Below are positions 27,609-46,769 of a DNA stretch of 64,000 nt, piece after piece. The notes under the pieces are model-generated. The model saw only the letters and a program-made list of their open reading frames with translations. It had not been told where the DNA came from and searched no databases. The stretch is from the NCBI GenBank assembly GCA_015272215.1, contig JACYMD010000084.1:1-64000 (forward strand), in the 5' to 3' direction. Origin of the DNA: Rivularia sp. T60_A2020_040. GTDB lineage: Bacteria; Cyanobacteriota; Cyanobacteriia; Cyanobacteriales; Nostocaceae. The first letter of the stretch is position 1; every line of letters starts with the position of its first letter. The position numbers and the translations under genes were made by a program.

Positions 27609-27989
27609 TCAACTATCCCAACCGAGAATTTCGCAAATTTCTTGTGCTAATGTTAAGGGACTGAAGGGTTTGGCGATCGCTGCTTTGATTCCTAAATCTG
27701 TGTAGCGACTACTTTCGGTATTTTGCACTTTAGCTGTAAGTAAAATTACGGGGATTGTGTTAGCGTTTGAGTTTTCTTTAAGACATTTAAAAGTACTAAT
27801 ACCATCCATATCAGGCATCATTACATCTAAAAGAATTGCATCTGGTTTTTCTGTTTCGGCTTTTTGAATTCCTTCAATTCCCGAACTTGCTGTGATTACT
27901 TCCCACTTTGCAGTAGTTTGTAAACAAATTTTAATCACTTCCTGAATATATTCTTCGTTATCAACTACTAGTATCTTTTTTCCTGTCAT
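27609..27989 (-). CDS. single-domain CheY-like response regulator
   Basis: 126 residues from ATG 27989 (TTG at 28001 also in frame). Receiver hallmarks are the acidic pair in KILVVDNEEYIQ (Asp 9, with Asn-Glu-Glu following), the phospho-acceptor in AILLDVMMPDMDG, the Thr in PVILLTAK, and the Lys in IAKPFSP. No output domain is present. It starts about 150 bp downstream of the hybrid kinase and runs in the same direction, so it is a likely phosphotransfer partner. Confidence 0.9.
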   Translation of the reverse strand: MTGKKILVVDNEEYIQEVIKICLQTTAKWEVITASSGIEGIQKAETEKPDAILLDVMMPDMDGISTFKCLKENSNANTIPVILLTAKVQNTESSRYTDLGIKAAIAKPFSPLTLAQEICEILGWDS

Positions 27990-28141
27990 TACTAATACCA
28001 AGAGATTATTTTATTTAAATAAATGATGATTTTTAGTTATTAAGTAGGTAGGCGTAATTAAATGTAAGATTAAACCTCACTCTTTCCCCTTCCCCGCTTG
28101 CTCAGAGGGTTCAGGTTTTATATTTAATTTAACCCACTTAT

Positions 28142-32203: not shown

Positions 32204-32531
32204 AGATTCTGGCGCTTGAAATTCAATAAAGGTTTAGAATTGATTTTTTTTAATGTTTTTTAATGTTTTTTAATTGATTTTCATATTTTCATAAAGTGTC
32301 AACTGTTTTGCTATTTTTATTTTAGAATAAAAGATAAATCCAGATTGACTTTTATGAACAAATATAATTTTTATTTAAGATTTTATTGAAAATTTTCTGT
32401 GATTTTTTTAACATTTTTTTAATATTCTTTTAATTATTAAAATTTTTATTTTCGGGAGCATAATTTGAGGATAAAACAGCTAAAAATTAGTTTAAGAATT
32501 ACTTGAATATGTTGATCAATTCTCAAGATGA

Positions 32532-32548
32532 TCCTCACAAGTTCCTCA
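32532..32548 (+). promoter_or_regulatory. 17-bp direct-repeat motif, upstream of USP
   Basis: TCCTCACAAGTTCCTCA on the plus strand is the reverse complement of TGAGGAACTTGTGAGGA. The half-sites TGAGGA are 11 bp apart. It ends 91 bp before the USP start and lies about 330 bp from the hybrid-kinase start on the other strand. Confidence 0.8.
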
Positions 32549-32639
32549 AATTTATAATTTAATTTTAATATTGAATGGTTTACTAACAGCGTTGCAATCA
32601 AGATATTAATTTTCTGATTCTTACAGAAGAGGTAGAAAT

Positions 32640-33170
32640 ATGTTTAAAAAAATTTTAGTTGCCATAGATGATGGAGAAACTAATCAACATATCTTAGATG
32701 AAGCTATCTCTTTAGCTTTAGCTGCCGATGCTCAACTAATACTTACCCATGTGGTACTCCCCTTCAATGAAATATATCCCGATCCAGGTTATATTGCTGC
32801 CCATGGTTATCATCCTACAGTACATGGTGAAACGGCAATTAGTTACCATATGCAAAAATTGCAGGCTTTAGAACAACAAGGTATGGAATTGTTACAATCC
32901 TTTGCGAATAAAGCTGAAACGAATGGTGTCAAGACTGAATTTATTCAAGCTACTGGTTCTCCAGGATATATGATTTGTAATGTTGCTCGTAGTCGAGAGG
33001 TTGACTTGATAATAGTCGGTCGTCATGGAAGGACAGGATTGAGTGAGTTTTTCTTGGGTAGTGTTAGCAATTATGTATTGCATCATGCACCTTGTTCTGT
33101 TTTGACAATCCAAAAACCAGTTTATCAAGAAACAACTGATTCTTTGCTCATGGAAGCAGCTTTGATGTAA
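32640..33170 (+). CDS. universal stress protein A family
   Basis: 176 residues. Opening KKILVAIDDGETNQHILDEAISLALAADAQLILTHVV is the UspA fold. The ATP-binding segment is VGRHGRTGLSEFFLGSVSNYVLHHAPCSVLTIQ (GxxGx9GS pattern, about 130-160), so it should be an ATP-binding type. AAGAGGTAGAAAT precedes ATG. The motif at 32532 suggests co-regulation with Hsp20 and the N-ATPase cluster. Confidence 0.92.
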   Translation: MFKKILVAIDDGETNQHILDEAISLALAADAQLILTHVVLPFNEIYPDPGYIAAHGYHPTVHGETAISYHMQKLQALEQQGMELLQSFANKAETNGVKTEFIQATGSPGYMICNVARSREVDLIIVGRHGRTGLSEFFLGSVSNYVLHHAPCSVLTIQKPVYQETTDSLLMEAALM

Positions 33171-33216
33171 TTTGATCATATTTGGTAACACTTGATATTA
33201 ACCATATACACCTTTC

Positions 33217-33322
33217 ATATCATGTCCGCTAAAAAACTTGTAATCAAGGGAAAAGGGAACAGGGAATAGGGGTGGAGAAAGTAGAGAGTAGGGAATAATA
33301 ACGAATCATCCGGACATGATAT
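33217..33322. repeat. inverted repeat pair ATATCATGTCCG ... CGGACATGATAT
   Basis: 12-bp perfect inverted arms (33217-33228 and 33311-33322) enclose a purine-rich stretch with GGGAA-type repeats. The same 12-mer arm occurs at 53768-53780. This looks like a small MITE or its remnant. Nothing else is seen in the 360-bp gap (33171-33530) except the motif at 33401. Confidence 0.55.
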
Positions 33323-33400
33323 CAATTGTTTAGGGGGATTAAATCAGTTTACTGATAACAGTTAACTGTTAACTGACAGTTGAATCATAAATTTAAAACT

Positions 33401-33417
33401 TGAGGAACTTGTGAGGA
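33401..33417 (+). promoter_or_regulatory. 17-bp direct-repeat motif, orphan copy
   Basis: TGAGGAACTTGTGAGGA is a perfect match to the USP motif in inverted orientation. No gene starts within 250 bp on either strand: the USP ends at 33170 and the methyltransferase ends at 33531. It could drive an unseen RNA or be left over from rearrangement. Confidence 0.6.
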
Positions 33418-33530
33418 GAAGCCAAGCAGTAATTAAATCAGTCGTTATACAATTGATATCTCCTAACTCCGGTGGTGTTAACTCCTAATGATGATATTGG
33501 CGATCGCTTGCGATCAAACTAAATTTGTTA

Positions 33531-34664
33531 CTAATTACGAACCATCAAATACTGACCATTACCATTGTATTCTCCTTCGCAAGTCGCAAAAATCGTTCCT
33601 AGCATAAGTAAATAAAAACGCCATATCCTCCGGAATTTCTCGTAGTTCATACCATAATCTAGAGATTTGATAGTCTCTTGATAATGGTCAAATCTTTGTA
33701 ACCAAATTGTCAAAGTTTTATGATAATTCATCCCATTTATATACCATTGTTCGACTGTTTTTAAATCACGATTATGGCTCGGAATCGCATCATAATTCCA
33801 GTAACGACCGTGAGGGAAAATATACTTGTGTGTAAAACCCGACGACATATTATTGGGAATACGGACAGTAATAATATGAATGAATACCTTGCCATCACTT
33901 TTGAGAAAAGATGCTAATTTTTGCAGGGCATTTGTGAGATTTCCAATATGCTCAAACACTCCGATTGAAAGAATTTTGTCAAATTTCTGAATAAATTTTA
34001 CTTCGTTAAAATCACCTTCGTAAAGAGTGAATCGATCCGAACTCAGGTAACTCTGAGGGTTTTGCATTTTGTGACGTATATACTCGCATTGTCGATGACT
34101 TAAATTCAGCCCTGTAAACCGTACATTGGGGAACTTCGACATTATGTAATTAGCCACACAACCCCAACCACAGCCTAAATCTAAAATATGGTCGCCGTCA
34201 ACTATCTCTAGTCGCTCAATGACTCGATCAATCATGTGCATCTGGGATTGTTCTAAATCCGTAGCTCCATCTTCCCATAATCCCATACTGTATTTCGGAT
34301 AAATAAGTTGCCAATCCCCCAACATCAGATTCAGCATCTCTTGGGGTAAGTCATACTGTATCTTCATCAGTTTTTGTGAAGATTCAGCTAGAGAATCTGA
34401 TTCCTTTAATACCCACTGGTAAGGAGCTAGTAAACCAGGACAATGTTTAAATAAAATAGGCATCGATGTGTGCAATAGCCCTCGAAACATTGAATCCGGT
34501 ATTTCTAAACCATTAATATAAGCGAATGCTAATGCCATTTGAGTCCTATTAAAAACTCTAGCTATTGTTCGTGTAGCTTTATAGGCAATTGGACTTTTGA
34601 GAGACATATCTCCCATAATGGGAATATACTGTTGGATATCTGAAAATACATTAGTAGAAGTCAT
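33531..34664 (-). CDS. cyclopropane-fatty-acyl-phospholipid synthase-like methyltransferase
   Basis: 377 residues. The SAM-binding core starts near residue 153: VDGDHILDLGCGWGCVANYIM, then VRFTGLNLSHRQCEYIR and YEGDFNEVKFIQKFDKILSIGVFEHIG. The C-terminus GFTHKYIFPHGRYWNYDAIP matches the CFA/mycolic-acid cyclopropane family. It would add methyl or methylene groups to lipids or act on another lipophilic acceptor. A weak motif-like sequence (ACTTGTGAAG) lies 45-60 bp upstream at 34709-34725. Its leader is 200 bp or longer and appears structured. Confidence 0.85.
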   Translation of the reverse strand: MTSTNVFSDIQQYIPIMGDMSLKSPIAYKATRTIARVFNRTQMALAFAYINGLEIPDSMFRGLLHTSMPILFKHCPGLLAPYQWVLKESDSLAESSQKLMKIQYDLPQEMLNLMLGDWQLIYPKYSMGLWEDGATDLEQSQMHMIDRVIERLEIVDGDHILDLGCGWGCVANYIMSKFPNVRFTGLNLSHRQCEYIRHKMQNPQSYLSSDRFTLYEGDFNEVKFIQKFDKILSIGVFEHIGNLTNALQKLASFLKSDGKVFIHIITVRIPNNMSSGFTHKYIFPHGRYWNYDAIPSHNRDLKTVEQWYINGMNYHKTLTIWLQRFDHYQETIKSLDYGMNYEKFRRIWRFYLLMLGTIFATCEGEYNGNGQYLMVRN

Positions 34665-34737
34665 TTGATTTATCTCTAATTAGATTACAATTGTTGTTTA
34701 TCGCTGAATATCACACTTGTGAAGTTATGCCCTTTAC

Positions 34738-34852
34738 CCAGAGTGATTTTCAGGTTCATGCCTGTAAACTCATCTGTGGAGGCTCTGAATTATTTAGACT
34801 GGATTCAAGACGACAGCCCACAAAAAAGCCTTTCTAACCTCCAGGCTGGGAG
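34738..34852. other. structured leader upstream of the methyltransferase
   Basis: Plus-strand CAGAG (34738-34743 region) pairs with CTCTG near 34786, enclosing a hairpin CAGG-TTCATG-CCTG. On the minus strand AGCCTGGAGGTTAGAAAGGCT followed by a T run (34852-34822) is terminator-like. The order on the minus strand is terminator first, then the paired element, then the gene. It may be a leader regulatory RNA. I see no known riboswitch consensus. Confidence 0.3.
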
Positions 34853-34900
34853 CTAGACTAGATAAGAGTTTTAACTTAACATAATTGTATAAAAGAAAGA

Positions 34901-34966
34901 AGTGCAAAGAATGTATCACCAGAATAGCTGCCCCCAGCTAAAACAAACATATGCATTCTTTGCACT
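34901..34966 (+). other. nested hairpin, possible structured RNA
   Basis: A 13-bp perfect stem (AGTGCAAAGAATG at 34901-34913 with CATTCTTTGCACT at 34954-34966) encloses a second hairpin TAGCTG-CCCC-CAGCTA. It lies in the 660-bp gap between the methyltransferase and atpG and does not correspond to a known element. No T run follows, so it is unlikely to be a simple terminator. Confidence 0.4.
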
Positions 34967-35236
34967 CATAGAAATAGAAAGGAACTTCTAAGAGGAACAT
35001 CTTCAAAAAAACCAGATTTAATCAACAAGTTCAGAAGCAATTTTATTACTGTTTATTACGATTTTAATTACACCTCCTCTGATAGCTAATAAATTATTGT
35101 TTTTTCTAAAGTATGATTTAAGCAAAGATTATCCCTCAGAATAGTACCATTCAGGTATTATCCAAAAGAGATAGCAGTTTCCAGAGAGCAAGCCGGATTG
35201 TTTAAACTGCTATTCATCAAAATTACCCCAAGAATA

Positions 35237-35253
35237 TGAGAAACTTGTGAGGA
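35237..35253 (+). promoter_or_regulatory. 17-bp direct-repeat motif, upstream of atpG
   Basis: TGAGAAACTTGTGAGGA (half-sites TGAGAA and TGAGGA, 11 bp apart) ends 71 bp before the atpG start. Confidence 0.75.
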
Positions 35254-35324
35254 AAACTCAAAATATTCAAAAAAATCGATTTTTTCAATAAATAGGTTTT
35301 TTCGCAACAATCAAATTAGAAATC

Positions 35325-36221
35325 ATGAAAAGTCTAGAAGCATTAACCGCACAAATTGATAGTATCAAAGACTTACAATCTGTTGTCAAAACGATGAAAG
35401 CATTAGCGATGGTTAGTATTCGTCAGTATGAGATAGCAGTAACAGCACTTGCAGATTATAACCGCACCGTTGAAATGGGGTTACAGATATTGCTTCGATA
35501 TCGTTACTTTAGTGAACAACCCCTGTTCACGAATCAGAGAAAAACTGGGACTTTGGGTGTAATTATATTTGGTTCAGACCACGGTTTATGCGGTCAATTT
35601 AACGAACAAATTGTATCTTTTGCTCTCGAACAACTGAATCAAAAACAGATAAAATCAGAAAATATTATGATTGCAACAGTCGGCGCACGCTTAATTCCTT
35701 ACTTAGAAGCAGCCAAACAACCAATATCCGCGCAATTTGCTGGAGCCAACTCCGTAAAATTGATTACACCAATAGTGCAGGAAATACTGTTGACAATTGA
35801 AAGTTGGCAATTTCCTTCATTTGAACAAATAATTCTTTTTTACAATAAATCCTTATCTAATGCATCATATCATCCTCAAAGTGTACAGCTTCTACCCATG
35901 AATGCTGAATGGTTGCAAGGCTTGGAAAAGCAACCATGGCATTCCGAAGGACTACCAAGCTTTACAATGGATTGGGATCAATTATTTTCAGCCTTGGTTC
36001 GTCAATATCTCTTCGTTTCGTTGTATCGAGCCTTTGCAGAATCTCTTAAGAGTGAAAATGCTAGTCGTCTTTCCTCTATGCAAGCTGCACAAAAGAATAT
36101 TGAAGAACGTTTAACAGAACTGAGTTCTCAACATCAAAATCAACGTCAAAGTTCCATTACATCAGAGCTTCTTGATATTGTTTCTGGTTTTGAAGCTTTG
36201 AACAATAGGGCAGATAAATAA
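35325..36221 (+). CDS. atpG: N-ATPase gamma subunit, detached from the operon
   Basis: 298 residues. It is the central rotary shaft of an F-type ATPase. The N-terminus shows KSLEALTAQIDSIKDLQSVVKTMKALAMVSIRQYE (normally ..RI.S....KIT.AMKMVAA.K), and LGVIIFGSDHGLCGQFN gives the G.DRGLCG-like motif. The C-terminal helix is LYRAFAESLKSENASRLSSMQAAQKNIEE. In N-ATPase operons gamma is normally last, after atpA. Here the nearest other subunit gene is about 900 bp away on the opposite strand, and gamma has its own leader and motif. Confidence 0.9.
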   Translation: MKSLEALTAQIDSIKDLQSVVKTMKALAMVSIRQYEIAVTALADYNRTVEMGLQILLRYRYFSEQPLFTNQRKTGTLGVIIFGSDHGLCGQFNEQIVSFALEQLNQKQIKSENIMIATVGARLIPYLEAAKQPISAQFAGANSVKLITPIVQEILLTIESWQFPSFEQIILFYNKSLSNASYHPQSVQLLPMNAEWLQGLEKQPWHSEGLPSFTMDWDQLFSALVRQYLFVSLYRAFAESLKSENASRLSSMQAAQKNIEERLTELSSQHQNQRQSSITSELLDIVSGFEALNNRADK

Positions 36222-36366
36222 ATAAGTAAATAATCATACAATAAAAACCTGTGGTGATTCTTGTATCTTACAATGCTCAATCGTAAATCTCAGTGATATA
36301 ACTGGAATTACAATAAATTTTAAATAACTATTAAGTAAGTATTGTTTTTTGCATAGACATATTAAT

Positions 36367-36383
36367 CCTCACAAGTTTCTCAG
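36367..36383 (+). promoter_or_regulatory. 17-bp direct-repeat motif, upstream of the PG-binding gene
   Basis: TCCTCACAAGTTTCTCA, reverse complement of TGAGAAACTTGTGAGGA, ends 81 bp before the start codon at 36464. The spacing and orientation equal those at the USP gene. Confidence 0.75.
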
Positions 36384-36463
36384 ATTTATTTTTTAACTTA
36401 AAAACATCATCAAACATCATCAAATAATTTAATTTTGTTAAATATAATCGGGAGAAATCAATT

Positions 36464-36724
36464 ATGTCAGTTGAAACACAATCTGTAACTGCATCTTCTT
36501 GTAGCCTACCAGTTTTACGTATTGGTTCCCTGGGTGAAGCTGTAACGCTTCTACAACAGCTTTTGGAATCTCAAGGTTATCGTACCAGTGGAGTTGACGG
36601 AAACTTTGGTCCAAAAACAGAGCAAGCGGTGAAAAAATATCAAACTAATTTTGGCTTAGTAACAGATGGTATAGTTGGAAAAAAAACTTGGTATAAATTA
36701 GGCGACCGGCTAATTAACCCTTAA
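36464..36724 (+). CDS. peptidoglycan-binding (PG_binding_1) small protein
   Basis: 86 residues, one domain: LRIGSLGEAVTLLQQLLESQGYRTSGVDGNFGPKTEQAVKKYQTNFGLVTDGIVGKKTWYKL is an almost complete PG_binding_1 fold. There is no signal peptide, so export is uncertain; similar free domains are frequent in cyanobacteria. RBS GGGAGAAATCA. It lies between atpG and the end of the N-ATPase operon, with its own motif. Confidence 0.85.
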   Translation: MSVETQSVTASSCSLPVLRIGSLGEAVTLLQQLLESQGYRTSGVDGNFGPKTEQAVKKYQTNFGLVTDGIVGKKTWYKLGDRLINP

Positions 36725-36768
36725 TCTGAATATTAAGTCAATATCTACCATCATAAATAGCATCAAGA

Positions 36769-36798
36769 GACGTAGCAATACGCCCCGTCTCTACGTTG
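36769..36798. repeat. palindrome AGAGACGTAGC.. / CGTCTCTACG
   Basis: GAGACGT and CGTCTC arms are related to the AGACGTT family at 1 and 45291. It lies between the converging PG-binding and DUF1816 genes and may serve as a bidirectional stop. Confidence 0.45.
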
Positions 36799-36816
36799 CT
36801 AACCGCGATCAAATCA

Positions 36817-37110
36817 TTATTCTTCGTAGATAGTCAAAGTTTTGGGTTTACACTTCTTAACAGAAGTCGAGATTCCCAAAGCTTTTTCCTCAATCAAATC
36901 TTCCACATAACCATCTTGATTAAGTTTAGCTTCTTGAGGATTATCAAAAGGACCGAAGTAATAAATACACTTGGGTTGATCGGTTTTAATTTTTATCCAA
37001 TACGGTGTATTTGAATTATTGAAAAAAGGAAGATTTTTGAAAAAAGAAAGATTATTGAAAAAAGAAAGATTATTGAAAAAAGAAAGATTATTTAAAAGAG
37101 GAAGATTCAT
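36817..37110 (-). CDS. DUF1816 protein with repeated N-terminus
   Basis: 97 residues. Residues about 35-97 (TPYWIKIKTDQPKCIYYFGPFDNPQEAKLNQDGYVEDLIEEKALGI...KCKPKTLTIYE) match DUF1816, a small cyanobacterial family. The N-terminus is an unusual low-complexity run of NNLSFF repeats, encoded by 18-bp direct repeats and not found in typical members. RBS CAGGAGTAAAATTTGCC. It starts 8 bp after atpA, in the position normally held by atpG. Confidence 0.8.
   Translation of the reverse strand: MNLPLLNNLSFFNNLSFFNNLSFFKNLPFFNNSNTPYWIKIKTDQPKCIYYFGPFDNPQEAKLNQDGYVEDLIEEKALGISTSVKKCKPKTLTIYEE
37021..37095. repeat. 18-bp direct repeats in DUF1816 N-terminus
   Basis: TGAAAAAAGAAAGATTAT is repeated nearly exactly about three times with diverged copies at both edges. 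It encodes NNLSFF in frame. Confidence 0.8.
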
Positions 37111-37118
37111 GGCAAATT

Positions 37119-38681
37119 TTACTCCTGAATTATTTGTCTAGCTATTTTTAAGATTGCTTGATATTCTTCGTCTGTTAATTTTTCACCCGTCTCAATACTT
37201 TGACAAACAGATGGTAATTCTCTCCTCATTGTTTGACAAAGTGCTTTACTTACCTCATCAATCTTATTTAGAGGTACTGTATCAAAAACGCCACTAGTTA
37301 CCGACAAAAGTACCGCTATTTGTTCGGCTACTTCCAGGGGTTGAGATTGCGGTTGTTTGAGTATTTCTCGCACTCTTCGTCCTCTAATCAGAGTTTTTCT
37401 GGTTTGTTCGTCGAGTTGCGTACCAAAGCGAGAGAAAACTTCGACTTCCTCAAATTGAGAATAAGAAAGTCGTAAATCTCCTGCCACAGCACGGTAAGCA
37501 TTTAATTGAGTTTTTCCGCCTACTCGCGAAACTGATTTACCTACATCTATAGCGGGAAAAATAGCTTTTTGAAATAAGTCTGGAGACAGATATATTTGAC
37601 CATCTGTAATAGAAATTAAGTTAGTAGGAATGTATGCTGAAATATTCTGCGCTTGTGTTTCTACTATGGGTAAGGCAGTTAGGGAACCACCCCCATATTC
37701 ATCCTTGAGATGGGTTGAGCGTTCCAATAACCGTGAATGAATATAAAAAATATCTCCCGGATAAGCTTCTCTACCAGGGGGACGACGAAGCAATAACGAC
37801 AGTTCTCGATAAGCCCTGGCATGATGGGTAAAATCATCATAGATAATTAATACATCGTTTCCTTGTTCCATAAAATACTCAGCCATCGTTGTTGCTCCGT
37901 AGGGAGTAACATACTGCAATCCTGGAGAGTCTTCTCCAGAAGCAACTACAACAATTGTGTATTCCATTGCTCCCTGCTGTTGGAGAGTATCAATTAATTT
38001 TGCTACCGCAGAAGCACGTTGTCCGATAGCACAATAAACACAGACAACATTTTTACCTTTTTGATTGATAATCGTATCGAGGGCGATCGCAGTTTTTCCT
38101 GTTTGTCTGTCTCCGACAATCAACTCTCGCTGTCCTTTACCGATAGGAATAAGAGCATCGACTACCTTTAAACCAGTTTGTAAAGGTTCCGTCACCGGGG
38201 CGCGGTTGATAATTGGTGGGGCTTCTCGTTCTAAAGGACGGCGTTTGGTAACTTCAATACTTGCTTTCTCGTCTAAAGCATTACCCATGACATCAACAAC
38301 TCTGCCTAAAAGTGCCTCTCCTACTGGTACATCCATCACTCGATGAGTCCGGTAAACTTCATCACCTGCTTGTAAATGATCGCTTTCCCCTAATAGAATC
38401 ACGCCAATTTGATCGGAATCTAGATTAAAAGCAATTCCTAATAAAGGTGCTTTGATGGTGGTTTGAGGAAAATACAGTAATTCATCCGCTTTCACACTGG
38501 GTAAACCAGATACATAAGCAATACTCCGTCCGACAGATTTTACTACACCAATTTCCTGAATATTTATCGGGGGATGATAACTATTTAATACTTTTTCAAA
38601 AGTTAAAAATGTATCATCTATAACCGATTGTAATATTGGGTATTGGGCATTGGACATTGGCATATTCTCTTTACTAATCAT
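37119..38681 (-). CDS. atpA: N-ATPase alpha subunit
   Basis: 520 residues. Non-catalytic nucleotide-binding F1 subunit. Walker A GDRQTGKT near residue 178, [36 protein letters not shown] near 275, and the Ser/Arg-finger region [12 protein letters not shown] near 350 with [10 protein letters not shown] near 380. Start overlaps the atpF stop by TAATG. It is much closer to N-ATPase alphas than to the usual cyanobacterial AtpA (for example [24 protein letters not shown]). It lies in the 3' part of the operon. Confidence 0.93.
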
Positions 38682-39457
38682 TAGTCTTTACCTGAAATGG
38701 GAATAATCCGCAGATTTTGTTGAAAGCGTGATTCTAATGTCTGTAAATAATCATCTAAATTCCAGGAAATTACATATGCTGCTAATTTGACTTGAATACC
38801 ACAAATTAAATCGGGTGAAGTCTGAAACTCTAAAGTATTATTGCTCAAAACTGCGATTGGTAAAGCCTTGATTATTTTTTGCCGATTTTCTGGAGATATT
38901 TCAAAACTGCTTTTAATGATTATCGGTTGATGGGAATATTGGAGAGATTGAGTAATTGTTTGTTGTTGATTTTGATCAATATTTTGCAAGCGTTCACAGA
39001 ACTTAAAAATCATTTGCTGTTCTAAATTTGTATCTGCTAAATCTTGCAAAGCCTGACGTGCAATTAGGTTAGTTTGCTTTGCTATTTGTTCTCTCAAGGA
39101 ACGGATAAAATCTGAATGTTCTTGTAAAAGTGCTTCTCTCCATTTTACCTGCATCTCTTCTACTTCCTGACGTGCTTTAATTAAAAGTTGTTGATGTTCT
39201 TGCTCAACTTTTTCGAGCATTTGGGTTGTTATCGCTTCTTCTTGCTGCTTTAATTCCTGTTGCTGCTGACGATAACTAGTCGCTTGCCGTTGTGCTTCTT
39301 CTTGAGCAATTTCAGCATCTTGCCATTGCTTATCAATCATTGCTTGCCGTTTTTTAATTGTTTGCATTATCGGCTTATATAAAAAGCGTTGAAGTAAGAA
39401 AACTAGAATCAGGAAATTGATGATTTGAGCGATAACCGTAAACCAATTTATTAGCAA
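38681..39457 (-). CDS. atpF: N-ATPase b subunit, extended form
   Basis: 258 residues, much longer than ordinary b (about 160-180). An N-terminal helix ([29 protein letters not shown]) is the membrane anchor, then a long helical stalk (about 35-140) and a C-terminal extension with [23 protein letters not shown]-ATPase operons lack atpH, and their b subunit is extended to cover the delta function; the sequence fits that. It overlaps atpA and is 4 bp from atpE. Confidence 0.88.
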
Positions 39458-39460
39458 GGT

Positions 39461-39730
39461 TTAGCCTCCTTTAAAATGATCCCAAAAAGGATTGACAAAT
39501 AATAAAATCATCGTCACCACAAAGCAATAGATAGCAGTGGATTCAATCATTGCCAAACCGACGAAAAGCGTGCGCGTAATGACATTAGCCTTATCTGGTT
39601 GTTGTGCAATCGCACCTAAAGCCCGAGCAACAGCTATTCCTTCACCCAAAGCAGGTGCAATCGAACCAATTGCGATTGTTAACCCAGCAGTTACAATCGA
39701 TGCCATACCAATTAAACCAAGATTATCCAT
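39461..39730 (-). CDS. atpE: N-ATPase c subunit, predicted Na+-binding
   Basis: 89 residues in two helices. The ion site shows Glu 30 in PALGEG and Glu 63-Ser 64-Thr 65 ... Tyr 68 (MIESTAIYC) in helix 2. The E-S-T...Y set corresponds to the Na+-type c-ring consensus known from Ilyobacter, with a second carboxylate (Glu 30) replacing Gln as in N-ATPases. This predicts Na+ transport. The polar loop is ARALGAIAQQPDKANV. Confidence 0.93.
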   Translation of the reverse strand: MDNLGLIGMASIVTAGLTIAIGSIAPALGEGIAVARALGAIAQQPDKANVITRTLFVGLAMIESTAIYCFVVTMILLFVNPFWDHFKGG

Positions 39731-39803
39731 AATTGAATTATTAATTACTAGTGAATCAGATAAACATTTAATTCCTAACTCTTAATCTAAAATCTAAAAT
39801 TAT

Positions 39804-40481
39804 TTAATTTTTTTGTCCTTGGGTGCTAGTTGCAGAAGCAATATATACCATTGCCAACATTGCAAAAACATATGCTTGAATTAGTCCGAATACCAATCCT
39901 AATGCTTGCATGACAATTGGGAAAAATAACGGAACTAACGATAAAAGAATCGCTACAAGCATGGTACCGCTCATAATATTACCGAACAATCTCACAGCTA
40001 AGGCTAGAGTACGAGAGAACTCTCCGATAATATTAAATGGCAACATAAATATTGTGGGTTGAATGTAATTTCTTAAATATCCGAAAAAGCCGCGCTTCAT
40101 AATGCCAAACAACGGTACAGCGACAAATACGCACAAAGCTAAAGCCGTTGTTGTGGAAAGAGAACCTGTTGGAGGCTGATATCCGGGTATAATTGTCAGG
40201 GTATTTGAAACCACAATAAACAGAAATAAAGTACCAATAAACGCGATATATTTTGTAGTTTCTTGTTGACTTACTTCATAAATTTGGTTATCAATTGCTT
40301 CGACGATAATTTCTAATAAACTTTGCCATCTAGATATCTTTGGGTGTGGGGATAAATTGCGAGTTACCAACCAAGATACTATTACCAAAAATGCCATTAC
40401 TACCCAAGTAAATACAATCGTGGCATTTAAAATAAATGTACCAGATTGCCAATAAATAATATTGTCAGGACTAATTTCCAT
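39804..40481 (-). CDS. atpB: N-ATPase a subunit
   Basis: 225 residues from ATG 40481 (a TTG two codons earlier is also in frame). Five or six membrane helices. The essential Arg is in FSRTLALAVRLFGNIMSGTMLVA near residue 165, and the last helix is GLVFGLIQAYVFAMLAMVYIASA. It forms the ion half-channels with the c ring. It is 14 bp downstream of atpR and upstream of atpE. Confidence 0.92.
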   Translation of the reverse strand: MEISPDNIIYWQSGTFILNATIVFTWVVMAFLVIVSWLVTRNLSPHPKISRWQSLLEIIVEAIDNQIYEVSQQETTKYIAFIGTLFLFIVVSNTLTIIPGYQPPTGSLSTTTALALCVFVAVPLFGIMKRGFFGYLRNYIQPTIFMLPFNIIGEFSRTLALAVRLFGNIMSGTMLVAILLSLVPLFFPIVMQALGLVFGLIQAYVFAMLAMVYIASATSTQGQKN

Positions 40482-40495
40482 GGTCAAAAAATAAG

Positions 40496-40786
40496 TTAGT
40501 GGTGAGTACTAAAAGAATGCTTCGGTTTCCAGCGTCTGATTAAAATACTGCGTGCTAAAACAAAACCTAATAAAGCAATAAGTAATTGTTGCCAACTTCC
40601 ATCCATAATTAAATAAAAGCCAAGTATGGCAATACTTAAACGACCGATTAAACTACCTACAATTAATAATATCGGTTTTTGTGTTGTCGGTAGTTGTCTA
40701 ACTGTTACCCATAAACTGCTAAAGTAAAATACTCCAATGACAAAACCCAAGGTTAAAGCTAGTAATAGATGCATAACATAATTCAT
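40496..40786 (-). CDS. atpR: N-ATPase AtpR small membrane protein
   Basis: 96 residues from ATG 40786, preceded by AGGAGGAGTAAAA; the upstream open frame is the end of the antiporter gene and is not used. Three helices with the AtpR signature LGFVIGVFYFSSLWVTVRQLP near the N-terminus. AtpR is found only in N-ATPase operons and probably helps c-ring assembly. Conserved spacing (2-bp gap) to the antiporter stop codon suggests translational coupling. Confidence 0.88.
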   Translation of the reverse strand: MNYVMHLLLALTLGFVIGVFYFSSLWVTVRQLPTTQKPILLIVGSLIGRLSIAILGFYLIMDGSWQQLLIALLGFVLARSILIRRWKPKHSFSTHH

Positions 40787-40788
40787 TT

Positions 40789-42012
40789 TTACTCCTCCTG
40801 AAATGATATTTTGGTTAGTAAATAATTCAAAAAAATCGGTACCATAAGGCTGGTTACAGCACAAACAACAACCATTGCAGCAAATACATCAGGAGGAACA
40901 GCCCAATCTCCTAATAATAATCCTCGCTGCATGACAATCATGGAAATTTCTGCTCTAGGAATCATGCTAAAACCAATGAGTGTCGCACCAGTCAAACCTG
41001 TAGCAAAAAAGGCTGGAATTCCGGCACCAATTACTTTGCTGATAACTGCGGCTATCAACAGAATTGAGCCTATTGCCAAACCTGTATTCAATGCACGGGG
41101 ATCAATATTTAAGCCAATACCAATAAAAAAGAATGGTGTGAATAGTTCGTATAAAGCTCCGAAGGATGCATCCATTTTCACCGCTTCAGAATCGCGACTA
41201 AATAAAAGTCCGGCGAAGAATGCGCCGATAGCTGCTGAGAAGCCCAAAAACCCAGCAAGTGCAGCAATTATAAAGCCCATTCCAACTACTTCTAACATGG
41301 GATCGGGTGCCTTTTCGATTTTGCTAAAAAATTTTGTCAAGTGTATTTCAACATAACGTGAAAATAATAAACACAAACTACCAAAGAAAATTGCGTTGAT
41401 AAAAAAGATTTTGGATGTCAGCGCAACAGTTGAAAATAAAGATACTGTAGTACCATCGTGCAAGGAGGGAGCAGCGGCAAATAGCAAAGCCATTAAAATT
41501 ACGCTAGCAATATCATCCATCTCCGCCACATCCAGTAGGATTTCACCATTGCGAGAACTAATCGCGTTTTTCTCACGCCAAACACTCACTGATACACCCA
41601 CACTAGTCGCAGTAAAGGCTGTAGCAATAAATAAACTAGGAATCAAAGCTATTTTTAATAAAAAATAAGCGGTAACAAAACCAAAAATACCACTAATTAA
41701 AACATCACCAATTAAAATTCCCAGTGCTTTGGGTAACTGACGTAGCAATCCTAATAAATCACTTTCCAACCCGACTCGGAATATTAGGGAAATAATCCCT
41801 AATTCGGCGAGAAACTCAAAAATTTCTTTGGCTTCTACTGATAGAAAATCCCATTCCACATCTGCAAGCTTTAATAAAAATCCTAATGTTAAATAGCCAA
41901 TCAATGCTGGAATTCCAATTTTCGCGAGTAAAGACTTTATTAATATGGCAAGAGTAAGAGCTACACCCATTAATAAAATCACTAAGGGTAAAGTCTGCGC
42001 TGATTCAATCAT
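40789..42012 (-). CDS. CPA2-type cation/proton antiporter embedded in the N-ATPase operon
   Basis: 407 residues from ATG 42012, overlapping the atpQ end by ATGATTGA; the TTG at 42045 would add 11 residues inside atpQ. About 12 hydrophobic segments, including LIGYLTLGFLLKLADVEW, LPKALGILIGDVLISGIFG and SAAIGAFFAGLLFSRDSEAV. LLDVAEMDDIASVILMALL carries the paired Asp (DD) expected of electrogenic Na+/H+ exchange. It sits between atpQ and atpR, where a classical operon has no gene, and would recycle or supply Na+ relative to the pump. The specificity is predicted. Confidence 0.88.
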   Translation of the reverse strand: MIESAQTLPLVILLMGVALTLAILIKSLLAKIGIPALIGYLTLGFLLKLADVEWDFLSVEAKEIFEFLAELGIISLIFRVGLESDLLGLLRQLPKALGILIGDVLISGIFGFVTAYFLLKIALIPSLFIATAFTATSVGVSVSVWREKNAISSRNGEILLDVAEMDDIASVILMALLFAAAPSLHDGTTVSLFSTVALTSKIFFINAIFFGSLCLLFSRYVEIHLTKFFSKIEKAPDPMLEVVGMGFIIAALAGFLGFSAAIGAFFAGLLFSRDSEAVKMDASFGALYELFTPFFFIGIGLNIDPRALNTGLAIGSILLIAAVISKVIGAGIPAFFATGLTGATLIGFSMIPRAEISMIVMQRGLLLGDWAVPPDVFAAMVVVCAVTSLMVPIFLNYLLTKISFQEE

Positions 42013-42307
42013 CACCACGTTCTCGTTGAATCCAATACCAAGCATTTATACAACCAAAAATAACACCAACAAACAACAACATCAAAGTCCAAGAATATTG
42101 ACTTGGGAAGCGAGTATCAATCCAAACCCCCAACCCTATACCTAATAAAGTCGGAATTGCGATCGACCAACCAACAATACCAAACATTCCCAAACCAAAC
42201 CAAACAGTGTGATTTTCTTCTTGTCGTGCTTGTAATTTACGTTTTGATTTGACGTTTATTTGTTTCTCAAAGTCTTCCCAAGGTTCATGAGGCTTCTTAG
42301 ATTTCAT
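42005..42307 (-). CDS. atpQ: N-ATPase AtpQ (AtpI-like)
   Basis: 100 residues. Two membrane helices, VWFGLGMFGIVGWSIAIPTLLGIGLGVWID and YSWTLMLLFVGVIFGCINAWYWI, follow a charged N-terminus (HEPWEDFEKQINVKSKRKLQ). This matches AtpQ/AtpI-like subunits of N-ATPases, thought to aid c-ring insertion. It overlaps atpC by 4 bp (ATGA) and the antiporter by 8 bp. Confidence 0.88.
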   Translation of the reverse strand: MKSKKPHEPWEDFEKQINVKSKRKLQARQEENHTVWFGLGMFGIVGWSIAIPTLLGIGLGVWIDTRFPSQYSWTLMLLFVGVIFGCINAWYWIQRERGDD

Positions 42308-42696
42308 GTTTTTCCTCCCACTTTTAGGAAACTGCGTATAAAACTAGCTTCTAATTTTGCTAATGCGCTACGAGTCATCTGTTCTCTTTCATCTAAAAAA
42401 AGAAACTCTTGTTCCACAGTATTTTTCAAAGTTTCCAAATCAGTTCCCCTAACAGCATTTCGCACCGACACCAACACCTCAGAACCACATTTCACCAAAA
42501 TTCCTTCATCTACCGCCAGAAATAGTTCTTCCCCCTGTTCGGATTCAAAAAACAACAATCCCGGAACCAATCCAGCCACAAAATCAACATGATTTGGTAA
42601 CAGACAAAAAGAGCCATTTTCAGCTTCAGCTGTAATTTTACTCGCCGCTTCATCTATTAATACTTCTGTCGGTAACAATACTTTAAGTTTCATCAT
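42304..42696 (-). CDS. atpC: N-ATPase epsilon subunit
   Basis: 130 residues. The N-terminal beta sandwich has LKVLLPTEVLIDEAASKITAEAENGSFCLLPNHVDFVAGLVPG and the C-terminal helices follow. GSFCLLPNHVDF is the expected G.F...P.H.D motif. ATG-ATG at the start allows 42696 or 42693. The gap to atpD upstream (144 bp) is filled by a dispersed hairpin and heptamer repeats. Confidence 0.9.
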   Translation of the reverse strand: MMKLKVLLPTEVLIDEAASKITAEAENGSFCLLPNHVDFVAGLVPGLLFFESEQGEELFLAVDEGILVKCGSEVLVSVRNAVRGTDLETLKNTVEQEFLFLDEREQMTRSALAKLEASFIRSFLKVGGKT

Positions 42697-42755
42697 AATT
42701 TCAGAGTTAGTACCACCGGAGTTAAGAATTAGGAGTTATGAGTTAGAAAATAAAT

Positions 42756-42778
42756 CGTAGTGGGAGCATCTTGCTCCC
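42756..42778 (-). repeat. dispersed hairpin GGGAGCAAGATGCTCCC + ACTAC
   Basis: On the minus strand GGGAGC-AAGAT-GCTCCC is followed by CACTACG. It has the same loop and tail as 3206 and 11634, with a different stem that still pairs. Confidence 0.6.
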
Positions 42779-42786
42779 TAGCTGTT

Positions 42787-42840
42787 TCCCAATTCCCAAT
42801 TCCCAATTCCCAATTCCCAATTCCCAATTCCCAATTCCCA
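42787..42840. repeat. STRR heptamer array (CCCAATT)
   Basis: About eight perfect copies of CCCAATT end one base before the atpD stop codon (42841). The array interrupts the operon between atpD and atpC. Confidence 0.9.
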
Positions 42841-44232
<1,392 letters not shown>

Positions 44233-44305
44233 TCATGATTTCAAAGTTTTGTTACACAACTTTTGATTGACCTCACGTATTACTTTGAAAAGGGTTTTCA
44301 CCTAT

Positions 44306-44521
44306 TTAAAGTTGTTTTTTGTGATTTTTCAACTGTTTCCAAAGTTTTTTAATTTCTTGATACGCTTGTTCTGGCGAAACTTTTCTATTAGTTTCAAGGT
44401 GACAAATATTGCTGATTTTTTGAGTGAATTCTTGGAGATTAGCATCAAATACTAAATTTTATGGTTTGACTTCTCCATAATAAGAAGAATGAGGATATAG
44501 AAAATCAGATTCATCAGTCAT
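44306..44521 (-). pseudogene. DUF7219-like gene interrupted by an in-frame TAA
   Basis: 72 codons from ATG 44521 (AAGGAGATAGCT upstream) to a TAA at 44306. The translation reads MTDESDFLYPHSSYYGEVKP, stop, then NLVFDANLQEFTQKISNICH...KVSPEQAYQEIKKLWKQLKN. The only break is TAA at 44461-44459, where the intact paralogue at 53838 has Lys (EPKNVVFNANLQEF). Everything after the stop stays in frame and conserved, which argues for a recent single-base nonsense change (AAA or CAA to TAA). Confidence 0.85.
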
Positions 44522-44580
44522 AGCTATCTCCTTGTATGATATCGGCTTGCTCGTATACAAAATAGATTAAATCACAAATC

Positions 44581-44597
44581 TGGGGATTTTGTGAGGA
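44581..44597 (+). promoter_or_regulatory. 17-bp direct-repeat motif between DUF7219 and the kinase gene
   Basis: TGGGGATTTTGTGAGGA (half-sites TGGGGA and TGAGGA, 11 bp apart). It lies 60 bp before the DUF7219 start on the minus strand and 156 bp before 44753. It is the most diverged copy, and as the nearest motif to the N-ATPase operon may drive it. Confidence 0.6.
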
Positions 44598-44752
44598 AAA
44601 AATAAATTTGTTGCGGCAGATAACACCTTCACAATTTCCCCATAATCTTTTTTTACTATAAAGAAAGATTATGTTAACGTAAAATCAAAAATATCGTCAT
44701 CATCAATAACAAATTAACAATGTTTTTTACTTAATTTACATTTAGATAGATT

Positions 44753-45235
44753 ATGAAATTCCAAATAGTTGCAGTAGAAATTCCGGAAGATTGTAACATT
44801 ATCATTGGTCAAAGTCATTTCATTAAAACAGTTGAAGATTTACATGAGGTAATGATTCAACAGGTAACACAAGTTAAATTTGGATTAGCTTTTTGTGAAG
44901 CATCAGGAGATTGCTTGGTTCGGCTGTCGGGAAATGACAAATTCTTACAAAGAGTTGCTCAAAAAAATGCTTTAGCGGTAGCTTGTGGACACTGCTTTAT
45001 CATCTTACTTAAAAATGCTTATCCGATGAACTTTCTTAATACTATTAGACAAGTTCCTGAAGTTTGTACTATTTACTGTGCTACTGCTAATCCGGTAGAG
45101 GTAATTGTTGTAGAAACTGCTCAAGGGAGAGGTCTTATTGGCATTGTTGATGGATTTTCTCCCAAAGGTGTAGAATCTTCTCAAGATATGATAGAACGCA
45201 AAGATTTTTTACGTCAGATTGGATATAAACTTTGA
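44753..45235 (+). CDS. adenosine-specific kinase family (DUF355) protein
   Basis: 160 residues, the standard family length. Features: IPEDCNIIIGQSHFIKTVEDLHEVM, KFGLAFCEASGDCLVRLSGND, HCFIILLKNAYPMNFLNTIRQVPEVCTIYCATANPVEVIV, and GRGLIGIVDGFSPKGVE. Proteins of this kind bind or phosphorylate adenosine; the bacterial function is scarcely studied. It sits between the N-ATPase operon and Hsp20, and the motif at 44581 is upstream. Confidence 0.85.
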   Translation: MKFQIVAVEIPEDCNIIIGQSHFIKTVEDLHEVMIQQVTQVKFGLAFCEASGDCLVRLSGNDKFLQRVAQKNALAVACGHCFIILLKNAYPMNFLNTIRQVPEVCTIYCATANPVEVIVVETAQGRGLIGIVDGFSPKGVESSQDMIERKDFLRQIGYKL

Positions 45236-45290
45236 TTTATCTGATTTAATAAATTTAATCAAATTCTTGGTAAGAATTTAAATATATAAA

Positions 45291-45311
45291 AGACGTTGCA
45301 CTGCAACGTCT
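45291..45311. repeat. palindrome AGACGTTGCA..TGCAACGTCT
   Basis: A 10-bp stem around a single C. It belongs to the family seen at position 1 and at 36769. It lies between the converging kinase and hsp20 genes and is followed by CTCTACATTA, as at position 21. Confidence 0.7.
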
Positions 45312-45344
45312 CTACATTATTATCTGTTAACAATTAACATTTAA

Positions 45345-45824
45345 TTATTTGACATCGATTTTCACGGTTTTATGTTTCTCACCTTCAAGTTTGGGTAAAT
45401 TAAGGCTGAGAATACCATTTTTGTATTCTGCTTGCACTTTGTCATTTTGAACGTGAGAAGGTAAAGGAATGTTTCGCTCAAATCTACCGTAGTGGAATTC
45501 CGAGCGTACCATACCTTTTTCTTCTGTCTTTGTTTCCGATTTGCGTTCTCCGCTAATAGAAACAGAGCTTTCTGTGACTTCAACACTCAAATCTTTAGGT
45601 TCCATTCCTGGTATTTCTAATTTGAGCCGAATATCCTCAGCAGTTTCTTCCATTTCTGCCGATGGTATATAGTTAAGTGCAGAACCTCCGTTACCGCTTG
45701 GTATCAACCGTTCCATCAAGCGATTCATTTGCCGTTGCATTTGATCTACCGTCCACATTGGCTCTCTAGAAAAAGGTTGCCAAGTTTCTATTTCTTGAAA
45801 AGGTTCCCAACGAGTAATTGGCAT
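45345..45824 (-). CDS. Hsp20/alpha-crystallin small heat-shock protein
   Basis: 159 residues. The alpha-crystallin domain spans about 50-155, with SAEMEETAEDIRLKLEIPGMEPKDLSVEVTESSVSISGERKSE and the FHYGRFERNIPLPSHVQNDKVQAEYKNGILSLNLPK signature. It forms oligomers that hold unfolding proteins. RBS AGGAGGCAAAGTC. The 17-bp motif is 71 bp upstream of its start. No CIRCE-type inverted repeat is seen. Confidence 0.95.
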   Translation of the reverse strand: MPITRWEPFQEIETWQPFSREPMWTVDQMQRQMNRLMERLIPSGNGGSALNYIPSAEMEETAEDIRLKLEIPGMEPKDLSVEVTESSVSISGERKSETKTEEKGMVRSEFHYGRFERNIPLPSHVQNDKVQAEYKNGILSLNLPKLEGEKHKTVKIDVK

Positions 45825-45894
45825 GACTTTGCCTCCTACGGATTTCTTATTTCAAGGTTTTGAAATCTTTCACTTTCAGAGTAGAAAAAAAATT

Positions 45895-45911
45895 TGAGGA
45901 AGTTGTGAGGG
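45895..45911 (+). promoter_or_regulatory. 17-bp direct-repeat motif, divergent hsp20 and P-loop genes
   Basis: TGAGGAAGTTGTGAGGG (half-sites TGAGGA and TGAGGG, 11 bp apart). It lies 71 bp upstream of the hsp20 start (minus strand) and 79 bp upstream of the P-loop gene (plus strand), so one site may serve both. Confidence 0.75.
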
Positions 45912-45989
45912 AATGAAAACGATTATCATTCACATATGAGTTACAATTAGCGGAGTAACTTATGGTTTCTAAATCTCAATGAAGTTTCT

Positions 45990-46769
45990 ATGACTATACC
46001 TTTAATTAAGGTTGTTGCTGGTCCTGCGGGTTCGGGAAAAACTGCTTGGATTCATCAGCAAATCCAAGATAGAAAATCTGTAGATGATGATAATATCATT
46101 TATTTCAGTCCCGGTACTGGAAAAGTTTCTATAGATAAAAACCGAATTGCTGCTGATTTTCCGGGAATACAGGTTTTCAGCGACACTCAAGAAGTTGAAT
46201 TACTCAAGCGAATACCCGAAGCGAAAGCGGTTTATATAGAATTGGGTTTTTACTTGGATTTAGAAAGTTTATCACCAATATTAGATGGTTTATCTTACCG
46301 TACTCTAGCTGTTTTACCACCGCATTTCAAAGATTCTGAATATCACGCTTGGGCTGATGAGATTATTTCAGGAATACCAATTAAAAGCGATTCATCTAAC
46401 CATTTATGGAGAGTTGGAACTGATACTCAGGTGATTGATGAAGATAGTTTAGAAGAGTTTTGGTATGAATTAACTCATGGTGCTTATGGTAATGTTAGCC
46501 GTGCTAAGGCAATTTTTGATGTTAATGATGGTAGAAGTATTTACTGTGATTTTGTTGCGGGTATACCCCAAGCCGGTTTTTTAGAATTAAATTTACCTCG
46601 TCATTTGGAAGGTAGACCACAGCGTTTTAGTGGTATTGAAGTGGTGGGAGAAAGTTTGGATGAAGTGATGCTCAAGCAAACTTTATCTGATTGTTTTTTA
46701 TCAGATTTATTAGTTAAGCAGTTCCAACAACAAGTTAAACAGATGTTATTAGAAGGTATGGAAGTATGA
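45990..46769 (+). CDS. CobW/COG0523-like P-loop protein lacking the metal motif
   Basis: 259 residues. Walker A is VAGPAGSGKTAWIHQQI (residues 9-25). The CobW-type body is shortened and the CxCC metal-binding motif is absent. The C-terminal region resembles a CobW_C domain (SRAKAIFDVNDGRSIYCDFVAG...QRFSGIEVVGESLDE). A homologue lies at 52893. The start of the next gene overlaps by 4 bp (ATGA). The role may be NTP-dependent, in metal or stress handling, but this is inference from context. Confidence 0.7.
   Translation: MTIPLIKVVAGPAGSGKTAWIHQQIQDRKSVDDDNIIYFSPGTGKVSIDKNRIAADFPGIQVFSDTQEVELLKRIPEAKAVYIELGFYLDLESLSPILDGLSYRTLAVLPPHFKDSEYHAWADEIISGIPIKSDSSNHLWRVGTDTQVIDEDSLEEFWYELTHGAYGNVSRAKAIFDVNDGRSIYCDFVAGIPQAGFLELNLPRHLEGRPQRFSGIEVVGESLDEVMLKQTLSDCFLSDLLVKQFQQQVKQMLLEGMEV

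Follow-up and report, generated by a model that had tools for sequence, protein, structure and literature searches.

A cyanobacterial promoter family with tandem 11-bp operator repeats, predicted to be controlled by an OmpR-type hybrid kinase and to serve an anaerobic and protective regulon

A 17-bp motif occurs six times between positions 32,532 and 45,911 of a 64,000-nucleotide stretch of DNA from Rivularia sp. T60_A2020_040 (contig JACYMD010000084.1, positions 1 to 64,000; this whole stretch is called the window below). As judged from sequence comparison, the motif is the operator half of an activator-type promoter, with two 11-bp repeats at the -35 position. We estimate at roughly 70 per cent the probability that these promoters form an activator-dependent family of the sigma-70 type, which would be controlled by an OmpR-type regulator contained in a hybrid kinase and would serve a regulon for anaerobiosis or energy loss. 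What emerges from the genome comparisons is a wide, real regulon whose promoter is well defined, with a strong candidate for the regulator and a coherent physiological theme. A sequence-only reading of the window had proposed a regulon under an OmpR/PhoB-family regulator; it identified the regulon and the class of regulator correctly, but erred in the direction of transcription and in some of the targets.

Scanning the window with the pattern TGAGRAACTTGTGAGGA at up to three mismatches gave exactly six matches. Among 100 dinucleotide shuffles of the window the mean was 0.27 matches and none reached six; the claimed copies are therefore real, and the statement that the window holds no others is true at this threshold. 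Five of the positions given earlier were exact and the sixth was shifted by one (36366, not 36367), the start of the kinase gene, put at about 330 bp from the first copy, lies at 328 bp, and a weaker match reported near 34709 falls below the three-mismatch threshold. In the Rivularia genome there were 50 matches at up to three mismatches and 18 for the reversed pattern; at up to two mismatches the numbers were 18 and 1. The copies often stood in small clusters (contigs C59, C53, C30, C63 and C75). In a first sample of 41 genomes, copies were abundant in most genomes of family f1, with few in four of its members (G013, G020, G023 and G024), and other families of the order were near control counts. 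Matches were thus not spread at random, and promoters were kept at orthologous genes (see below), so that the proposal of a regulon was borne out. The segment 32400-46000 of the window had no near match among plasmids.

Exact matches to the 17-mer were sought in public genomes of bacteria and archaea; they lay on at least 117 stretches (L071-L187), 80 of which are used for the counts below. After seven non-cyanobacterial loci were dropped, the 73 cyanobacterial loci gave 79 exact sites, whose hosts, among the matches listed, range from Nostoc and Calothrix to Leptolyngbya, Chamaesiphon, Acaryochloris and Pleurocapsa. In the alignment of these sites the flank was conserved on one side only, with adjacent T (95%) and A (92%), an A (76%) four places on, and an A/T tract adjoining the 17-mer. 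Read from the opposite strand, the sequence is TCCTCACAAGT TCCTCAaATTT nnnn TAnnnT. Two 11-bp half-sites (TCCTCAcAAgT and TCCTCAaATtT) occupy the -35 region; the -10 box that follows, TANNNT, begins 11 nt past the 17-mer. The TA was at its fixed place in 70 of the 79 sites, and the complete TANNNT in 52, whereas none of the seven chance matches from other phyla had the TA. In the Rivularia genome, where the -10 box had played no part in finding the sites, TA was present at 15 of 18 sites with up to two mismatches and at 1 of 12 that were fetched with three, the background being 8%. All six window copies, including the two weak ones, have TANNNT.

In activation of the PhoB/OmpR type, as at the Pho box, 11-bp direct repeats replace the -35 element. 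The promoters described here share two features with the Pho box, namely tandem 11-bp half-sites whose end lies some 11 bp ahead of the -10 box and a regulator with a Trans_reg_C domain; they differ in the half-site and recognition helix, and in that the window regulator carries Hpt and kinase domains in the same chain. The suggestion that half-sites 11 bp apart are those of an OmpR/PhoB-type regulator thus agrees with the promoter design, in which the -10 box stands at a fixed distance with a gene on that side.

The conservation of TANNNT at one end implies that transcription runs opposite to the motif as written. Direction was assessed for 72 exact sites, the remaining 7 of the 79 being too close to the end of their locus, with gene starts set by a simple rule for open reading frames (ORFs) and no gene caller. 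An ORF of at least 80 aa starting within 350 bp was found only on the -10 side at 43 sites, only on the other side at 1, on both sides at 15 and on neither at 13. With a minimum of 120 aa, the corresponding numbers were 41, 5, 10 and 16. The earlier view that the sites serve genes in both orientations is therefore not supported, and the target changes for three of the window copies.

With up to three mismatches allowed, the extended promoter gave 768 matches, spread over 121 of the 291 genomes scanned from the class, and the reversed pattern gave 8. Its spread is patchy: none of 35 genomes of family f21 had it, and 33 genomes of f42 had 13 matches, seven of them in one genome. Single genomes of f32 reached 31 matches, and those of f43 reached 28. 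Sites in f32 and in genome G229 are crowded together within stretches of about 20-400 kb.

Downstream ORFs were present at all but 3 of the 79 exact sites, and the 76 ORFs were clustered. The commonest product (8 of 76) is a small cysteine-rich protein of 66-83 aa with the pattern MNxCPCCxxxLLxH...FCxxCWQ/I, two members of which gave no match in Pfam. Next came universal stress proteins (USP; 7), pyruvate:ferredoxin oxidoreductase (PFOR; 4) and a 74-aa protein of unknown kind (4). Clusters of three comprised a Blh-like phosphatase/sulfur-transferase-like protein, a hydrogenase maturation protease and acetate-CoA ligase. Among the pairs were a variant of the photosystem protein D1 (psbA), HoxE, a glycyl-radical activase, a FeoB-like GTPase, a CBS protein and others, including one that we take to resemble a phosphoribosyltransferase; 28 of the 76 stood alone. 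In family searches, representatives of HoxE, the pyruvate formate-lyase (PFL)-activating protein, the Acg oxidoreductase, phosphoenolpyruvate (PEP) synthase and the hydrogenase-protease superfamily passed the cut-offs, acetate-CoA ligase and psbA were slightly below and FeoB (a 206-aa frame) far below. The promoter neighbours in the Rivularia genome include pyruvate kinase and a CBS-CP12 protein. The D1 variant behind an exact promoter (L081, L103) has FQGDHN and HAPNVHNFPLVLS where ordinary D1 has FQAEHN and HERNAHNFPLDLA, so that its manganese-ligand places differ. Such proteins are called 'rogue' or 'sentinel' D1 and have been proposed to stop oxygen evolution. Taken together, the genes behind the promoters seem, by their predicted products, to form an anaerobic, fermentative, protective and dormancy-like regulon.

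The regulator of the window promoters is most likely, on sequence evidence, the OmpR part of the hybrid kinase encoded next to the first copy. The order of domains in this protein is receiver-OmpR winged helix-Hpt-receiver-receiver-PAS-GAF-PAS-HisKA-HATPase. Within residues 1-230, PF00072 (Response_reg) was found at 3-113, followed by PF00486 (Trans_reg_C) at 146-221, which places it in the OmpR/PhoB family; the nearest solved structures are those of DrrD, RegX3, MtrA and RpaA. A search with these residues found close orthologues in many promoter-bearing genomes. Family f32, G229 and G275 had many promoters without a close orthologue, and since f32 and G229 reach up to 31 promoters in this way, a close orthologue of the window kinase was rejected as the sole regulator. 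The recognition helix was therefore compared instead. Regulators linked to the islands of sites are 52-57% identical overall, yet keep the helix [ED/N]AVRTH[IV]KG[LV]R. In f32 and G229 the parts of the regulator are separate genes, one for a receiver-OmpR-Hpt-receiver protein (614-616 aa) and one for a CBS-PAS-GAF-PAS kinase; split and fused forms share the same domains, and a CheY-like frame lies near the split genes at L251 and L263.

The DNA pattern of the helix AVRTH[IV]KG[LV]R was found in 75 of the 291 genomes. Two or more promoters were present in 68 of these 75, against 27 of the 216 helix-negative genomes (odds ratio 68, P 1e-35), and at least one promoter in 72 of 75 against 49 of 216. 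When helix labels were permuted within families, the expected value was 304 (standard deviation (sd) 22) and the observed one 465, and none of 20000 permutations was as high. Among loci fetched by the regulator, 8 of 32 with the helix had a site (up to three mismatches) within 700 bp of the regulator start, compared with 0 of 26 without it (P 0.006). The link to the neighbouring hybrid kinase, which the sequence-only reading had offered as conjecture, is thus backed by co-occurrence of helix and promoter over the 291 genomes and by adjacency elsewhere.

Several observations weigh against this assignment. A control paralogue with the helix TVKAHIK, present in 31 genomes, also tracks the promoter (20 of 31 genomes, with an odds ratio of 4.5; 158 against 86 when stratified, sd 16, 0 of 20000). 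Part of this signal arises because large genomes have many regulators. In AVRTH-negative genomes the control helix was not significantly associated (4 of 15, compared with 23 of 201; P 0.10), and AVRTH kept its association in genomes that lack the control helix (52 of 59, compared with 23 of 201). Three genomes (G161, G267 and G312) have the helix and no promoter, G161 even with a regulator at 71% identity. Conversely, nine helix-negative genomes have four or more promoters; in six of them (G076, G097, G125, G163, G212 and G287) a close relative of the regulator was found (E <= 1e-98), so that a varied helix is possible there. Rivularia contig C63 encodes a second, split pair, in which a regulator of 237 aa has the same helix and the kinase is a CBS-PAS protein of 1058 aa; the window kinase thus need not act alone. 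All eight linked sites point away from the regulator gene; they give no sign of autoregulation, which was rejected. On plasmid pMB02 of Acaryochloris 'Moss Beach' a helix-positive regulator lies between an N-ATPase operon and hoxEFU, surrounded by hypABE, USP, CBS and adenosine-kinase genes, but the 40 kb examined had no promoter at up to three mismatches. Finally, two of the six window promoters are without an ordinary nearby target. Relatives of the regulator also occur on plasmids (L299-L302) among genes for heavy-metal ATPases and phosphoketolase; three of these have one or two promoters each, and L300 and L302 one more at three to four mismatches.

Some of these points would fit another binder, either some other protein of the OmpR type or an alternative sigma factor with TCCTCA as its -35 element. 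Each genome has many OmpR paralogues, with up to 237 candidates at first look; co-occurrence does not equal binding, and the control helix is itself somewhat associated. We nevertheless consider another binder unlikely, given the RfpB parallel described below and the covariation of the helix across 291 genomes. As for the sigma factor, an 11-bp spacing of half-sites is characteristic of OmpR/PhoB dimers and not of a single -35 hexamer, and the -10 box is ordinary; a -35 element of this kind was rejected as the identity of the motif.

In the window (Table 1), the promoter aimed at the divergent usp gene beside the kinase is kept before the usp orthologues of G001, G004, G006 and G007. The rule of 43 sites against 1 assigns three copies to genes on their -10 side. 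The copy at 35237 points away from atpG, which lies 71 bp from the other end of the promoter, and to the methyltransferase, an assignment backed by G001, G004 and G006, which keep a promoter without mismatch 265-756 bp before the same gene; in G003 and G007, of the same genus, an outward-pointing copy lies 64-69 bp from atpG, with no gene seen downstream. The copy at 44581 faces a DUF7219-like remnant heading the N-ATPase operon (42 bp before that frame and 334 bp before atpD), not the gene at 44753, which encodes an adenosine-specific kinase. The copy at 45895 faces hsp20, an arrangement that recurs at other loci, and not a P-loop gene. Of the targets listed earlier, usp, the peptidoglycan-binding gene, DUF7219/N-ATPase and hsp20 thus stand, the P-loop gene does not, and atpG is a possible target. 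The genes found for the N-ATPase are those for beta, epsilon, a, b and alpha and the Na/H exchanger, with atpG apart on the other strand.

The copy at 33401, called an orphan before, indeed has no clear gene behind it, yet is a perfect promoter with a -10 box, directed leftwards to the 3' end of usp. Its product may possibly be a non-coding or antisense RNA. The stretch behind it (33175-33376) has a long inverted repeat and folds at z -2.5 relative to shuffles, and that behind promoter 3 at z -2.1, both weak signals; no Rfam match was found in 32000-46500. Parts of about 33220-33330 match many places in the genus, in the manner of a dispersed repeat.

Table 1. Promoters, their predicted targets and other features. 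Motif positions refer to the 17-mer as written, with its strand and mismatches in parentheses; coordinates are those of the window unless a locus is named.
Feature	Coordinates	Strand	Remarks
Promoter 1	32532..32565	+	motif 32532 (-, 0); TCCTCACAAGTTCCTCA + 11 nt + TAATTT; 74 bp before usp
Universal stress protein	32640..33170	+	Pfam Usp; target of promoter 1
Promoter 2	33384..33417	-	motif 33401 (+, 0); perfect; -10 TATGAT
Promoter 3	35220..35253	-	motif 35237 (+, 0); -10 TAATTT; 555 bp before methyltransferase
Cyclopropane-synthase-like (CMAS) S-adenosylmethionine (SAM) methyltransferase	33531..34664	-	Pfam CMAS; predicted target of promoter 3
atpG of N-ATPase	35325..36221	+	Pfam ATP-synt
Promoter 4	36366..36399	+	motif 36366 (-, 0); -10 TAACTT; 64 bp before peptidoglycan-binding gene
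Peptidoglycan-binding protein, 86 aa	36464..36724	+	Pfam PG_binding_1; target of promoter 4
Promoter 5	44564..44597	-	motif 44581 (+, 3); weakest copy; -10 TAATCT
DUF7219-like frame	44306..44521	-	in-frame stop; name from the sequence-only reading
N-ATPase operon (beta, epsilon, AtpZ/I-like, Na/H exchanger, a, b, alpha)	37119..44229	-	behind promoter 5
Promoter 6	45878..45911	-	motif 45895 (+, 2); -10 TACTCT; 53 bp before hsp20
Hsp20	45345..45824	-	Pfam HSP20; target of promoter 6
Hybrid kinase, 1353 aa	28142..32203	-	predicted regulator; recognition helix EEAVRTHIKGLR
CheY-like receiver	27609..28001	-	beside the kinase; presumed role, see text
Cysteine-rich protein	L033 6391-6630; L091, L095, L110, L113, L115, L125, L130, L138		loci encoding the protein

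Rivularia contig C127 (L035) holds a rearranged partial copy of the window genes (pieces of the N-ATPase and the methyltransferase), in which a promoter copy precedes a phosphoribosyltransferase-like frame. Such a copy bearing the motif, and the presence of many sites in islands, would be expected if the motif were a dispersed or mobile repeat, or a promoter merely copied along with duplicated gene blocks and belonging to no regulon. This we regard as highly improbable: the genes behind the sites are unrelated and come from many genera, the -10 box and the direction rule hold, and flanks beyond the promoter are not conserved, for which reason a dispersed repeat was rejected as the identity of the motif.

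The closest parallel was found in far-red light photoacclimation (FaRLiP), whose RfpA, RfpB and RfpC likewise comprise a histidine kinase, a receiver-winged helix regulator with an extra receiver, and a CheY-like partner. Deletion has identified RfpB as an activator of the far-red gene cluster; the terms 'promoter' and 'binding site' do not occur in the part of that report available to us (PMC4658448). RfpB of Fischerella NIES-4106 is 65% identical to the window kinase over residues 1-222, but its helix is EDTVTAHIKGLR where the window kinase has EEAVRTHIKGLR. FaRLiP operons carry a candidate RfpB operator of the same shape, TCTTCATWAGTTCTTCA + 11 nt + TANNNT (L248, L303, L327-L333), with half-sites TCTTCA in place of TCCTCA; in the FaRLiP clusters of Fischerella NIES-4106 and Rivularia the sites are of the type TCTTCAT[TA]AGTTCTTCA, with the -10 box at the same spacing, and are four to five mismatches away from the TCCTCA pattern. 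The TCTTCA variant was found in 12 of the 291 genomes, next to a FaRLiP-like psbA in 4 of the 12 and to an allophycocyanin-like gene in 2; most of the other variant loci were near CheY or kinase genes, and L334 resembles the TCCTCA set. FaRLiP differs in having a phytochrome sensor and photosystem and phycobilisome genes as targets. The window kinase itself is not RfpB: its neighbours are usp and N-ATPase genes and not a FaRLiP photosystem cluster, and it lacks the helix EDTVTAHIKGLR seen at L248 and L303. A 622-aa relative on Rivularia contig C121 (L248) was rejected as the regulator, as it lies in the FaRLiP cluster and has the other helix. These comparisons suggest that half-site and helix change together while the promoter design stays constant, a correlation drawn from few cases.

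In mycobacteria, an Acg/Rv3131-family oxidoreductase, USPs, Hsp20 and CBS proteins are under one two-component regulator, DosR/DevR. Taking the whole promoter family rather than any one genome, Acg, USP, Hsp20 and CBS proteins stand here behind one operator as well. The likeness is one of gene content only: DosR belongs to the NarL type and has a different operator, whereas the candidate here is of the OmpR type (no search was aimed at DosR-like proteins) and hydrogenase, PFOR and N-ATPase are added to the set. We give an even chance to the broader view that the regulon would be a widespread but patchy cyanobacterial counterpart of DosR dormancy under AVRTH OmpR-type phosphorelay regulators with the operator TCCTCACAAGTTCCTCA, and RfpB a paralogue with helix TVTAH and TCTTCA half-sites, one design having been re-aimed between anaerobic survival and far-red photosynthesis.

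In the mechanism we envisage, a phosphorylated dimer of the OmpR/PhoB type would occupy both half-sites from the same face of the double helix; placed in the -35 region, it would hold or recruit a sigma-70-type RNA polymerase at the -10 box, activating rather than repressing the target genes. The regulator would be the N-terminal OmpR part of the 1353-aa kinase, fed by the Hpt, receiver and kinase domains of the same protein, probably in the order kinase, receiver, Hpt, OmpR receiver. The adjacent CheY-like protein might also feed it, possibly as a phosphate shuttle, by analogy with RfpC. Promoter architecture, direction, gene content and helix/promoter co-occurrence are apparent in the sequences; from them we infer binding, activation, the order of the relay and the signal. 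The signal would be loss of oxygen or energy (darkness with anoxia), perceived by PAS/GAF domains in the window kinase and by CBS domains in the split versions. This is proposed because the set is anaerobic, fermentative and protective: PFOR, bidirectional hydrogenase and its maturation, glycyl-radical activase, acetate-CoA ligase, altered D1, Acg, USP, Hsp20, CBS proteins and, in the window, N-ATPase.

Some published expression data bear on this signal. In Chlorogloeopsis PCC 6912 an anoxic atmosphere in the light caused, in the part of the report consulted, almost no transcript change; the cells in that experiment were producing oxygen (PMC10830646). The plasmid ATPase genes of Acaryochloris marina, in a source seen likewise in part, rise only slightly under microoxic conditions (PMC5295598). 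As far as consulted, these data neither prove nor clearly support the oxygen or energy-loss signal. It is conceivable, though in our judgment rather doubtful, that the promoter family and OmpR control are as described while the signal is adenylate charge, redox state, darkness, metals or desiccation, the anaerobic genes being part of a general energy-stress set. The CBS domains of the split kinases, the N-ATPase, pyruvate kinase and CBS-CP12 genes among the Rivularia neighbours, the promoters at three of the plasmid regulators among heavy-metal ATPases and phosphoketolases, and the absence of a strong oxygen response in PCC 6912 (PMC10830646, as far as seen) would all agree with this. Metals or desiccation, in turn, hardly explain PFOR, HoxE, the hydrogenase protease, the glycyl-radical activase and the D1 variant behind exact copies.

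The same fermentation genes are induced under microoxic conditions in Synechocystis, where hox and nifJ are under SigE, cyAbrB2, LexA and perhaps Rre34; in the sections of that paper available to us neither a TCCTCA repeat nor an AVRTH regulator is described (PMC11368403). OrrA was also considered; 'binding site' and five similar terms do not occur in PMC13131328. A literature search for the motif letters gave, among the matches listed, no title on cyanobacteria, and topic searches found no paper on a TCCTCA-repeat regulon, from which we claim no wider absence.

Control of fermentation, hydrogenase and survival of anoxia is poorly known in cyanobacteria outside Synechocystis. If the regulon described here is real in the sense proposed, the operator, the spacing to the -10 box and the recognition helix would together allow the anaerobic regulon to be read from any cyanobacterial genome, and the promoter would be a ready inducible element for hydrogen or fermentation work. 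A candidate operator for RfpB would also be at hand, and the paralogue pair AVRTH/TCCTCA and TVTAH/TCTTCA would offer a natural test of how the specificity of OmpR-type regulators changes.

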